A stretch of 64,000 nt of DNA from Fictibacillus nanhaiensis (GTDB lineage Bacteria; Bacillota; Bacilli; Bacillales; Fictibacillaceae): NCBI GenBank assembly GCA_016401345.1, contig JAEACG010000001.1, forward strand, positions 186,001 through 250,000. Direction: 5' to 3'. The position numbers and the translations under genes are program-made. The notes under the pieces were generated by a model, which was not told where the DNA came from, made no database searches, and was given only the letters and a program-made list of their open reading frames with translations. This document shows positions 5,464 through 61,532 of this stretch, piece after piece (the stretch's first letter is position 1; every line of letters begins with the position of its first letter).

Positions 5464-5892
5464 TTAACAATGCTTATCATATGCTCCGAGAAGATTCTCA
5501 AGAATCTCTTCAGGTGCATGATTTTCAATGTTATGACGATGAATAAAATGAACGACTTTTCCATCCTTTAATACAGCCATCGACGGTGAAGATGGTGGGA
5601 TCTCTCCAAAAAACTCTCTCATTTGAGCTGTCGCTTCTTTATCTTGGCCAGCGAAAACCGTTACAAATTGGTCAGGTTTTACCGTATGATTGATAGATGC
5701 AACAGCGACTGGACGAGCAAGACCAGCAGCACATCCACAAACAGAGTTGATAACAACTAGTGCTGTACCTTCTGTTTCTTGCATAAAATAATTCACTTCT
5801 TCTGGTGTTTTTAATTCTTCAAATCCAGCACGTGTTAGTTCGTCTCTCATCGGCTGAGCCATCTGTTTCATATATTCTTCATAAGCATTCAT
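5464..5892 (-). CDS. brxA: Bacilliredoxin BrxA
   Basis: A 142-residue thioredoxin-fold protein of the BrxA/BrxB family, which removes bacillithiol from S-bacillithiolated proteins after oxidative stress. The active site SVCGCAAGLARP places the CGC motif at 52-54. FAGQDKEAT and PPSSPSMA are further family signatures. The N-terminus MNAYEEYMKQM matches BrxA (YphP) more than BrxB. I chose this ATG over an in-frame one 39 bases upstream because AGGAGG lies at the right distance and homologues begin here. It implies that the host makes bacillithiol. Confidence 0.93.
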   Translation of the reverse strand: MNAYEEYMKQMAQPMRDELTRAGFEELKTPEEVNYFMQETEGTALVVINSVCGCAAGLARPVAVASINHTVKPDQFVTVFAGQDKEATAQMREFFGEIPPSSPSMAVLKDGKVVHFIHRHNIENHAPEEILENLLGAYDKHC

Positions 5893-5952
5893 ATTATATA
5901 TTCCTCCTGAAAACGATTCATTTACATACAATGTTATTATAACGTAAACCGT

Positions 5953-6624
5953 CTATCTTTTTAAAATGTTTCTGCTTATCTCATGAATCTTCTTGTTCTC
6001 TAGAATTTTCACTGTTTCGTTATGAGCGTTGAAAGCTTCTTTTATCATTGCTCTTGCAACAGAACTTGCTTCAATAGGTTCATATTTATTAGGATATATA
6101 AAGGGTAGAGCTTTATATAATTTTTCAGCAAATCTTTCTCCCAACCTAAACTCTTCCCGATCCCCTATTAATAAAGACGGTCTAACAATCGTCAAAGTTG
6201 GAATGCTCATTGAGATCAACTGAGATTCCATGCTACCTTTTACTCGATTGTAAAAAAACGTAGAGTTTGCATGAGCACCCATAGCTGAAATTACAGAAAC
6301 ATGCTGTATATTTAACGTATGAGCAAGTCTTCCAAGTTTAATTGGAATATGTAGGTCTACTTCTTCAAATGCTTTCTTAGATTTTACTTTATTCATCGTC
6401 GTTCCGATACAGATGAACATAACATCCGCTTCTGTTTGTTCTAGCTCGTAATCAGCTGATGTAAAATCAAAAATAACTTCTTTTATCTTTTCATGCTTTA
6501 TATCAGATGACTTTCTAACAAGCAGAATGATCTCTTTACACATAGGATCTGTCAATAATTGCTTCACAACTTCTTTTCCTACTAATCCGCTTGAGCCTGC
6601 TATAATTACTGTTTTCTTATTCAT
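5953..6624 (-). CDS. NAD(P)-binding Rossmann-fold protein (HTATIP2-like atypical SDR)
   Basis: A cytosolic protein of 223 residues. The N-terminus VIIAGSSGLVGKEVVKQLL is the dinucleotide-binding motif. ICIGTTMNKVKSKKAFEEVD and the later FFYNRVKGSMES and TIVRPSLLIGDREE segments are typical of atypical short-chain dehydrogenases similar to the HTATIP2/YraR group. The substrate is unknown. It is divergent from the next gene, another SDR protein, across a 60-base gap, so the two may share a control region. Confidence 0.75.
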   Translation of the reverse strand: MNKKTVIIAGSSGLVGKEVVKQLLTDPMCKEIILLVRKSSDIKHEKIKEVIFDFTSADYELEQTEADVMFICIGTTMNKVKSKKAFEEVDLHIPIKLGRLAHTLNIQHVSVISAMGAHANSTFFYNRVKGSMESQLISMSIPTLTIVRPSLLIGDREEFRLGERFAEKLYKALPFIYPNKYEPIEASSVARAMIKEAFNAHNETVKILENKKIHEISRNILKR

Positions 6625-20345: not shown

Positions 20346-20361
20346 TGTCGTTTAAGTAAAA

Positions 20362-20536
20362 TCCGCTCTGCCGTGACTTTATATGCCTTTGGAACCTGAT
20401 CTCTCAGGTGGGTATCCGCAGCTGCCGTTACAGCCTTCCAAGTCGAATGCTAGGCTTGACTGTCTGACAGATCATATTGGATTCCCGTCATTAGCACATA
20501 GGTTAAAGACATGGAAAAGCCACGAACATCGCAGAA
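20362..20536 (-). ncRNA. ssrS: Probable 6S RNA
   Basis: A gene-sized non-coding stretch with a good promoter and a strong terminator. Its ends pair: TCTGC, then CGTG, CTTT and ATG on the 5' side match CAT, AAAG, CACG and GCAGA on the 3' side. The start TCTGCGATGTTCGTGGC resembles the 5' end of known 6S RNAs. ACCTGA-GAGA-TCAGGT makes a perfect hairpin near the 3' end. Its length of about 175-180 bases fits 6S. The role would be to sequester SigA RNA polymerase in stationary phase. Identification is from pattern, not alignment. Confidence 0.6.
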
Positions 20537-20540
20537 TTTT

Positions 20541-58716: not shown

Positions 58717-60096
58717 TTAGTCGATTGAACGTATCGCATCTTCAAGTGTCAAAAGCTCTTCTTCTGAAATCGTTCTAAGATCCAATAGTACTTCTTCCTC
58801 TTTGATCCTCACGATAATAGGGGTCTGATAGTTCCGAAAAGCTCTTGCTAAGTAATCTGCACCTTTAGAGTGTTTAATACCAAGACAAAAAGTTGGCAAC
58901 TTCACATCTGGCATCGTCCCTCCCCCAACTTGAGAGAAATCTTCCAGAATTCTGATTGTTAAAGAAGAATGATCTTCTACCTTTCTTTTTAGTCTCCATA
59001 CTATCTCTCTGATCTCTTCAGGAGTTTTTAAAATATCTCTAACTGTAGGAATCGTTGAATATTCTTCGTTTAAATACGCCTGCAACGTTTCGTTTAAGGC
59101 TGCGATCGTAAATTTATCCACTCTTAAAACGCGAGCTAGTTGATGTTTCTTTAATATGCCGATGATTTCCTTTTTCCCTGCAATAATCCCAGCTTGTGGG
59201 CCTCCCAAAAGTTTATCTCCGCTAAAAGAAACAACATCTATACCTTTGTTGATAACAGAGGAGATTAAGGGTTCATCACCTATTCCAACGGACTGAAAAG
59301 GATAGAGTGCACCACTTCCCAGATCTTCATATACAATCAGTTCCGGGTGATTCTTTTTCAACTGCATCAACTCGCTAGAAGAAACTTCTTTTGTGAACCC
59401 AATCACCTTGAAATTACTTGTGTGAACCTTCATGATCATACCGGTTTTATCCGTTATCGCTCGTTCATAATCAAAAAAATGTGTTTTATTCGTAGTTCCA
59501 ACTTCCCGCAGCTCCGCACCACTTTCTTCCATTATAGAAGAAACACGAAATGAGCCTCCGATCTCTACAAGTTCACCTCTTGAAACAATGACTTCTTTAT
59601 TTTTTGCTAGTGCTTTGAGAACTAAATAAACGGCTGCAGCATTATTGTTCACGACCATTGCTGCTTCTGATCCTGTCACTTGCTTAATTAGCTCCTCTGT
59701 TAGATCATGCCTAGAGCCTCTTTTCCCTTCCTCCAAGTTATATTCTAAATTCGAATACATTCTTGCTGTTTCACTCATCCGCGCTACGCTTTTTTCACTG
59801 AGTCTAGAGCGACCAAGATTTGTATGGATAACGATTCCGCTAGCATTGATCAGTGAACGAATCTGATCTTTAGGATGAGCTAATTCTGCCCTTGCTGAAT
59901 TCAAAACAAGTATTCTGATATCAGTTTTCAAGTCAATAGCTTGGGGGTGTTTAAAAATATACTCTCGCCAATGATTGATTGCATCTTGAACAGCTCGTGT
60001 TATTTCCTTTTCCGGTTTGCCATTCACTTCAGAACTGATATCTTTCACTGCCTCATGCACGGCAGGAAGCTGCCTTAATAAATCTGATTTTGACAA
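58717..60096 (-). CDS. selA: L-seryl-tRNA(Sec) selenium transferase
   Basis: A 459-residue PLP enzyme that converts Ser-tRNA(Sec) to Sec-tRNA(Sec) with selenophosphate. HTNLGRSRLSEKSV, ASGIVIHTN and the lysine at 295 in SFSGDKLLGGPQAG are typical. The N-terminal tRNA-binding domain (1-60) is intact, so it is a full SelA and not a short paralogue. It starts at TTG. Its Shine-Dalgarno is locked in a 12-bp hairpin. It follows the rdx gene by 50 bases on the same strand and is probably cotranscribed. Confidence 0.93.
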   Translation of the reverse strand: MSKSDLLRQLPAVHEAVKDISSEVNGKPEKEITRAVQDAINHWREYIFKHPQAIDLKTDIRILVLNSARAELAHPKDQIRSLINASGIVIHTNLGRSRLSEKSVARMSETARMYSNLEYNLEEGKRGSRHDLTEELIKQVTGSEAAMVVNNNAAAVYLVLKALAKNKEVIVSRGELVEIGGSFRVSSIMEESGAELREVGTTNKTHFFDYERAITDKTGMIMKVHTSNFKVIGFTKEVSSSELMQLKKNHPELIVYEDLGSGALYPFQSVGIGDEPLISSVINKGIDVVSFSGDKLLGGPQAGIIAGKKEIIGILKKHQLARVLRVDKFTIAALNETLQAYLNEEYSTIPTVRDILKTPEEIREIVWRLKRKVEDHSSLTIRILEDFSQVGGGTMPDVKLPTFCLGIKHSKGADYLARAFRNYQTPIIVRIKEEEVLLDLRTISEEELLTLEDAIRSID

Positions 60097-60102
60097 AATG
60101 AA

Positions 60103-60138
60103 GCCTCCTTAAGGTATCAACGATCTCCTTAAGGAGGC
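60103..60138 (-). promoter_or_regulatory. Hairpin sequestering the selA ribosome binding site
   Basis: On the mRNA strand, GCCTCCTTAAGG pairs perfectly with CCTTAAGGAGGC across a 12-base loop. The second arm contains AAGGAGG, the selA Shine-Dalgarno, seven bases before the TTG start. No T run follows, so it is not a normal terminator. Confidence 0.8.
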
Positions 60139-60146
60139 TATCGTTG

Positions 60147-60383
60147 TTAAGCCTTTAATTTTTCTAAGTGTTGAATGATCAGGTCGTGATCCGGAAATTC
60201 TCCGGTCTCTTTTTTTGAATAAATCTTATCACCATCAACAATAACTTCAAAAACTCCGCCAGAACTTGAAATCAGTTCAAGCGATGAAACTTTAGATCGA
60301 AAATGGTTGAACAGGTCTTCCGCGAGACTCGCGGCTTTTGGTGCAAAGTTTCACATCATGCAGAATTCAATAGATACTTTCAT
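60147..60383 (-). CDS. SelW-like Rdx selenoprotein with a CxxU motif
   Basis: A 78-residue thioredoxin-fold protein interrupted by an in-frame TGA at codon 11 (60351-60353). Reading TGA as selenocysteine gives MKVSIEFCMMUNFAPKAA, with Cys8 and Sec11 forming the CxxU redox site. GGVFEVIVDGDKIYSKKETG is the SelW/Rdx signature. AAAGGAGGATGTATT precedes the ATG. A short stem-loop follows the TGA. It is divergent from selD and directly upstream of selA. The function is probably thiol redox; the partner is unknown. Confidence 0.85.
60320..60334 (-). promoter_or_regulatory. SECIS-like stem-loop in rdx
   Basis: On the mRNA: CCGCGAGUCUCGCGG, starting 16 bases after the UGA. A 5-bp stem (or 6-bp with a tighter loop) closes the loop AGUCU. 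Confidence 0.65.
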
Positions 60384-60476
60384 AATACATCCTCCTTTTT
60401 TAAGACTATTTTAGTATATCCTTAGGCAAATCACAAAAATAATGTTTATACTAACAAAAGGAGGTGTCGTTAAATT

Positions 60477-61532
60477 ATGACAAGCGAAGATAAAGTAAAG
60501 CTCACTCACCTTTCTTCAAAAGGTGGTTGAGGCTGTAAAATTGGTCCAGAAGACCTGGCGCAAGTTTTGCGTCATCTACCAAAACGCGAATATGATCCTA
60601 ACCTTTTAGTTGGTTTAGATACTTCAGACGATGCAGGTGTATATAAGTTAACTGATGACCTTGCCATGATCCAGACTGTCGACTTTTTCACACCTATTGT
60701 AGATGATCCATATATGTTCGGACAAATCGCTGCTGCAAATTCACTAAGTGACGTTTATGCGATGGGGGGACACCCTACAACAGTAATGAATATTGTTGGC
60801 TTTCCGATCAACACACTTGGTCATGATGTGCTCGCCGAGATTCTAAAAGGAGCAGCTGACAAAGTGAAGGAATCAGGTGCGGTGCTTGTTGGAGGACACT
60901 CGATCGATGATTCTGAACCTAAGTTTGGTCTGTCCGTCACAGGACTCGTACACCCTTCTAAAGTATATAAAAATGTAGGAGCAAGACCAGGAGATGTTCT
61001 TGTATTAACAAAACCTATCGGTGTCGGTATTCAAACCACTGCTATTAAAAAAGACAAGCTTACTGACGATCAACTTCAGTTAGTCAGCAAAACGATGGCC
61101 ACATTGAATAAAACAGCAGCAGAATGCTTGGAAGGTCTATTTCCAAACGCTGTAACCGATGTAACAGGTTTCGGCCTTCTCGGTCATGCGACTGAGATGG
61201 CAAAAGGAACAGGAGATATTACCATCGAGATTGATTATCACAGTGTACCTCTTTTACCAGGTACCACAGAGCTTGCGCAAGAAGGAATCGTGCCTGGTGG
61301 TACTAAAGCAAATCATCGCTGGATAAAAGATGATGTACTCTATGGCAATGAACTTTATGAGTGGCAGCAATGGATTTTATGTGATGCTGTGACTTCTGGC
61401 GGTTTACTCGTGAGTCTTTCTAAAGAAGAAGCTGCAGAATATCTTAAGAGACTTCACGATAAAGGTATAGGTGACGCAAGTATCGTCGGTCGTGTTCATG
61501 AGATCTCTGAAAAACCGATCAAAGCCAATTAA
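60477..61532 (+). CDS. selD: Selenide, water dikinase (selenoprotein form)
   Basis: A 351-residue enzyme that makes selenophosphate from selenide and ATP. The ATG follows AAAGGAGGTGTCG. Codon 18 is TGA (60528-60530) in SSKGGUGCKIGPED, where other SelD proteins have the catalytic Cys or Sec. DDAGVY, TVDFFTPIVDDPYMFGQIAAANSLSDVYAMGG and GGHSIDDSEPKFG continue the family. An automated call from the next start after the TGA would lose the first 30 residues and the active site. It is divergent from rdx, with a 93-base shared region. Confidence 0.95.
60556..60574 (+). promoter_or_regulatory. SECIS-like stem-loop in selD
   Basis: UGGCGCAAGUUUUGCGUCA, starting 25 bases after the UGA, forms an 8-bp stem with one G-U pair. 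The apical loop can be written AGUUU, like the AGUCU of the rdx element. Confidence 0.6.

Follow-up and report, generated by a model that had tools for sequence, protein, structure and literature searches.

A predicted SelW-like selenoprotein gene directly upstream of selA in Fictibacillus, followed by a predicted hairpin over the selA ribosome-binding site

SelW-like proteins carrying a CxxU motif are a long-known family of bacterial selenoproteins. With 48 genes they outnumbered every other selenoprotein family in the Sargasso Sea set (2005; PMC1088965); a count of them across bacterial genomes followed in 2006 (PMC1794560), and a review of 2022 (PMC9312934) lists them under the motif CxxU. 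In the Sargasso Sea paper their function is called unclear, with the CXXU motif suggesting a redox role and an interaction with glutathione having been found. Some epsilonproteobacterial SelW genes were wholly missed by annotation (PMC4607533), and the SelW of Campylobacter jejuni (CJnc60), a protein of 80 amino acids with one UGA, was likewise not annotated, its full-length translation being backed by Ribo-seq and proteomics (PMC11955535). The Fictibacillus gene described here shares with the known SelW-like bacterial selenoproteins (PF10262; TIGR02174) the CxxU motif, a bacterial-type SECIS behind the UGA and a match to the family profiles, and it differs from earlier reports in coming from an additional lineage, that of Fictibacillus and the order to which this genus belongs, and in lying directly upstream of selA. 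Like the C. jejuni gene it would encode a SelW with a single UGA (78 versus 80 amino acids), but C. jejuni belongs to another phylum, and against the corresponding model, NF041051 (Campylobacter SelTWH equivalog), the Fictibacillus protein scores 81.4 bits, under the cut-off of 88, and is not filed as that equivalog. The gene is thus a sound annotation in a family already known from bacteria and not a new kind of system; because that family has been known for so long, the finding is less surprising than it first seemed. What is added here is a strict co-occurrence of Rdx and SelA in the sampled order, covariation of the SECIS at synonymous sites, and a selA ribosome-binding site predicted to be locked within the genus. 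A search of an open-licence library, outside which most subscription journals lie, found no paper in which Fictibacillus and selenocysteine occur together.

The gene, which we call selW, occupies 60147..60383 on the reverse strand of the window, meaning the whole 64,000-nucleotide stretch of Fictibacillus nanhaiensis DNA that was analysed. Translation of 60383-60147 with TGA read as selenocysteine (Sec) gives a product of 78 amino acids followed by TAA, MKVSIEFCMMUNFAPKAASLAEDLFNHFRSKVSSLELISSSGGVFEVIVDGDKIYSKKETGEFPDHDLIIQHLEKLKA, and the only in-frame TGA is codon 11 (60351..60353, reverse strand). A preliminary description of this DNA had held that a complete Rdx protein is encoded only if this TGA is Sec, and that Cys8-Met-Met-Sec11 forms a CxxU site; the translation bears out both points, with CMMU at residues 8-11 of a frame that matches the Rdx family. 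The same description placed the signature GGVFEVIVDG at the C terminus: the signature is present, though at residues 42-51 of 78, in the middle of the protein. A Shine-Dalgarno sequence, AAGGAGG, stands at 60391..60397 (reverse strand), and a promoter-like site, TTGTGA-17-TAAAAT, lies further 5′ at 60408..60436 (reverse strand), a consensus match only, in a region where 4 such sites were found in 601 bases against 1.0 expected.

When the U-containing translation was searched against family models, as the preliminary description had proposed, it matched Pfam PF10262 (Rdx) over residues 2-74 with 73.5 bits (cut-off 22.6; E 1.6e-20) and the NCBIfam model TIGR02174 (CXXU_selWTH) with 57 bits (cut-off 34.2). 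Among PDB sequences, 2FA8 (Atu0228) matched residues 2-72 (E 1.2e-11), with CTQC in the columns of CMMU, and 3DEX (SAV_2001) matched residues 2-67; together the Pfam, NCBIfam and PDB-sequence matches cover nearly the whole protein. Both of these proteins have Cys at the second redox position, in both alignments listed, where the Fictibacillus protein would have Sec. Homologues with Cys in the U column, which had been suggested as something to look for, are therefore found in 2FA8 and also in one genomic locus of our scan (L027, with CASC). From the sequence evidence we consider it very probable that selW is a genuine SelW-like selenoprotein gene of the Rdx family in Fictibacillus, with the insertion of Sec itself inferred.

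The genome holds the full set of genes expected for Sec insertion: selA, selB, selC (tRNA-Sec) and selD all occur together with selW. As previously noted for this stretch, selA and selD adjoin the gene. The Sec synthase gene selA (58717..60096, reverse strand; TIGR00474, 540.7 bits) has the same orientation as selW and begins with TTG 50 nt past its stop, and selD (60477..61532, forward strand) starts 93 nt upstream of selW and is divergent from it. Approximately 1 kb past the end of the window lies selB (G000:C1:251006-252868; 361.6 bits, cut-off 242.25), followed by tRNA-Sec at about C1:253291-253387 (58 bits, cut-off 47), for which ARAGORN gives the anticodon tca. In 14 control genomes the same cut-offs were exceeded by SelB in 2, tRNA-Sec in 5, SelA in 1 and Rdx in 2. 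A tRNA selenouridine synthase is also present in the Fictibacillus genome (304.6 bits). In an even sample of 397 genomes of the order, in which SelA was counted as present at E 1e-60 or better, SelA was found in 181 and Rdx in 165, with one TGA in every Rdx match listed. All 165 Rdx genomes fall within the 181 with SelA, and Rdx is missing from every one of the 216 genomes that lack SelA (Fisher P 7e-94, a value that ignores relatedness). Conversely, 16 of the 181 SelA genomes have no Rdx. Such a gene, which ordinary gene calling can miss, is a feature of the whole genus and, judging by this sample, of about four in ten genomes of the order.

A scan of GTDB genome contigs with the SelW protein as query returned 34 loci, the closest relatives of selW being those of Fictibacillus, at 90% identity. 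TGA stands in the Sec column in 32 of the 34; of the other two, L027 has its Cys there, and the match of L035, from Evansella caseinilytica, does not reach the column. Homologues do, then, align Sec or Cys at codon 11; the lack of any such homologue was one of the outcomes by which, according to the preliminary description, its reading would have fallen. Every one of the 18 genomes of the genus carries one Rdx gene, in which a single TGA lies in frame, and in 10 of the 17 other than our own the selW region is identical to a named Fictibacillus locus. When differences between 19 Fictibacillus sequences were summed over all pairs, those after the TGA numbered 1461, 563 and 4521 at codon positions 1, 2 and 3, a pattern such as would be expected of a translated protein. 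These observations bear directly on the suggestion that the TGA is a plain stop, in which case the locus would be a selW in decay or would encode a leader peptide of ten codons ahead of selA. Under the standard code codon 11 does terminate, and one relative has an apparently truncated copy: in E. caseinilytica (L035, approximately 5800-6200) what appears to be a shortened Rdx lies behind a locally repeated stretch, and the 400 bases read there showed no CxxU in their frames. The retention of an Rdx gene with one TGA throughout the genus argues strongly against this suggestion, as do the bias toward third codon positions that persists past the TGA and the lack of any genome, among the 397, with Rdx but without SelA; we regard a plain stop as very improbable. 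Still further from likely, to the point of being negligible, is that the TGA arose by sequencing error or by a local point mutation in what had been a Cys codon. Homologues with Cys are known (2FA8, 3DEX and L027), but an identical TGA appears in separate assemblies of many species, and the other genomes already refute such an origin. The scan also brought up an Rdx frame with two TGA codons, in which YUGMU (UxxU) replaces CxxU; it was seen at 5998-6222 of L029 and 310-534 of L030, two contigs of one Verrucomicrobiales metagenome-assembled genome.

Reading of the TGA as Sec, the interpretation that we prefer, is further supported by a conserved SECIS stem-loop, CCGCGA-GUC-UCGCGG, at 60320..60334 (reverse strand), which we identified by folding and by covariation at synonymous positions. 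Counted from the U of the UGA, the hairpin comprises bases 20-34 and the loop G is base 26, so that a stem-loop with a small apical loop (GUC) containing a guanosine lies just 3′ of the UGA, as is described for bacterial selenoproteins (PMC1088965). To follow the hairpin we used 92 distinct sequences from 117 loci, picked by a motif that demands U; because of that demand the set is uninformative on conservation of the TGA itself. All six pairs are retained in 86 of the 92 sequences, with counts of 91, 90, 91, 92, 89 and 88 pair by pair, and the loop starts with GU in 87. The incomplete stems are those of L028 and L031 (3 of 6 pairs each), L034 (4 of 6), and L033, L072 and L090 (5 of 6 each). 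Two of the pairs, 21-33 and 24-30, each join two third codon positions, and 179 of their 184 cells are paired; in 2000 shuffles, in which synonymous codons were exchanged among sequences having the same residue and the relatedness of the sequences was not preserved, the mean was 142.4 paired cells and the maximum 154. In single-sequence folds the hairpin alone has an ordinary folding energy (z -0.43 and -0.70).

Following the established bacterial pathway, SelA would make Sec-tRNA(Sec) with selenophosphate supplied by SelD, SelB on the SECIS hairpin would bring this tRNA to the UGA of selW, and the ribosome would then proceed to the TAA. Recoding efficiency in vivo is given as 30-40% in PMC4513850, and at such an efficiency a ten-residue product may occur alongside the full SelW protein. 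In that protein Cys8-Met-Met-Sec11 may act as a thiol/selenol redox centre cycling through a selenenylsulphide, its probable targets being disulphides of low-molecular-weight thiols or peroxides. BshA is encoded in the genome (574.2 bits), and because of this we would expect bacillithiol to take the role of glutathione as the thiol partner, which is a guess. These bacteria offer a convenient place to study the function of bacterial SelW, in cells that, given bshA, probably use bacillithiol.

The junction between selW and selA, where the ribosome-binding site of selA lies about 40 nt past the selW stop, is predicted to form a hairpin. In this hairpin, at 60103..60138 (reverse strand), GCCTCCTTAAGG (60138-60127) is perfectly complementary to CCTTAAGGAGGC (60114-60103), and the selA Shine-Dalgarno sequence falls within the latter; the folding energy of the segment is -24.4 kcal/mol (z -6.39). 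The probability that this Shine-Dalgarno sequence is unpaired was 0.0001, against a shuffle mean of 0.297, with none of 300 shuffles reaching 0.0001, and it is the least accessible of the 29 such sites scored in the window. We scored 21 junctions in all, L013, L016, L017 and L019 having been excluded beforehand, and in 17 the five-base core had an unpaired probability of <0.001; for these the shuffle means were 0.13-0.32, and the observed value was reached by 0-5 of 300 shuffles. The 17 comprise 16 distinct Fictibacillus junctions, covering 16 of the 18 genomes of the genus, and L015 from Halalkalibacter, while L011, L014, L066 and L067 show no sequestration. For rescoring, a motif picked up 56 distinct junctions and the longest Shine-Dalgarno match was used; of 38 additional stretches 18 entered this set, the rest being repeats or missed by the motif. 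L082, too, escaped the motif scan. Of the 19 Fictibacillus junctions rescored, 14 lie below 0.002, and the others are L003 and L004 (both 0.167, when scored over six bases and not the five-base core), L067 (0.085), L011 (0.43) and L066 (0.55). Among the 37 junctions of other lineages only L015 and L130 fall below 0.01, and L075, which resembles L015 on visual inspection, comes out at 0.25. With just these 2 of 37, a locked Shine-Dalgarno sequence is not general to selA, our claim is limited to Fictibacillus and L015, and an order-wide switch of terminator versus Shine-Dalgarno sequence, hinted at by L014, L067 and L079, was rejected. RNAalifold on 14 junctions found none of 8 hairpin pairs changed on both sides, and a hand-anchored pairing of 18 junctions found few, so that covariation support for the hairpin is weak. 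As a predicted structure of the genus, a brake on selA translation is well supported.

It is possible that selA is coupled in this way to read-through of the selW UGA. In the fullest form of this idea, selW would also be a Sec-sensing leader for selA in the genus: only ribosomes that had read through the UGA would open the hairpin, and SelA would rise with the selenium supply. Counted from the first base of the selW stop, base 11-15 is where the 5′ arm of the hairpin, with its CCTCC core, starts. Masking the first 15 bases from that stop, as a ribosome at the stop would, gave 18 of 19 junctions a higher predicted accessibility, of 0.154-0.817. The depth of sequestration across 16 of the 18 genomes and in L015, the rank of the selA site within the window and the rarity of the feature in other lineages, by which it is no general property of selA, all speak for such a leader. 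The effect of the mask, however, hinges on the assumed footprint, since with 13 bases a value of 0.16 was reached by only 6 of 19 junctions (L001, L004, L009, L010, L015 and L067), and in L066 accessibility drops to 0.115 under the 15-base mask, from 0.47 without it. Also to be set against it are the weak covariation, the four junctions without sequestration, and the rise of L003 and L004 under six-base scoring; moreover, a plain brake on selA translation accounts for the hairpin equally well. We judge the leader unlikely, and regard as slightly less likely again the broader proposition that output of Sec synthase in Fictibacillus is proportional to the success of Sec insertion, so that selW read-through would provide positive feedback for the 21st amino acid. 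If UGA read-through does control the selA hairpin, the cell would have in it a simple, naturally occurring sensor of its selenocysteine supply. Autoregulation of SelB in E. coli reportedly uses a SECIS-like leader bound by SelB. The likeness lies in the control of Sec-machinery genes after transcription; the difference is that the E. coli leader is bound by SelB, whereas in Fictibacillus a plain sequestration of the Shine-Dalgarno sequence behind selW is predicted. The E. coli autoregulation is mentioned in PMC8124441. A search of the open-licence PMC library, which does not establish absence from print, found no paper on selA coupling.

Further candidate selenoproteins are encoded in the same genome. 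The selD gene carries its own in-frame TGA (60528-60530), and its product is itself a predicted selenoprotein with the motif GGUGCK; U occupies this position in all 29 Fictibacillus locus sequences (L001-L012 and L051-L067, several of which represent one genome twice), and the motif was not found nearby in six other Bacillales loci examined. In the mechanical list of open reading frames selD starts only past the TGA, at 60567. Elsewhere in the genome, a peroxiredoxin-like frame (L141; G000:C22:66246-66617, reverse strand) has an in-frame TGA in DFTPGUIKE, where we would expect the peroxidatic Cys, and is likely a further selenoprotein, as is an AhpC-TSA-like frame (L142; G000:C1:732999-733340, reverse strand) reading TTAGUGLC, with a UxxC motif. 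A second AhpC-TSA-like frame (L143; G000:C1:1307486-1307749, reverse strand), reading RHLGUPYY, is a candidate whose match falls just under the Pfam cut-off. In all three of these AhpC/Prx-like genes the TGA is presumably at or near the redox position. In view of the TGAs in selD and in these three genes, the idea of Rdx as the sole reason for keeping the Sec system was rejected. The genome has three matches to PF00384, none with an in-frame stop: two are formate-dehydrogenase-like and read NCSRYCQ, with Cys at the presumed position of Sec, and the remaining match is to another molybdoprotein. In an Rfam search of the window at the gathering threshold the only match was 6S RNA (RF00013, 73.1 bits), at 20356-20540 on the reverse strand.
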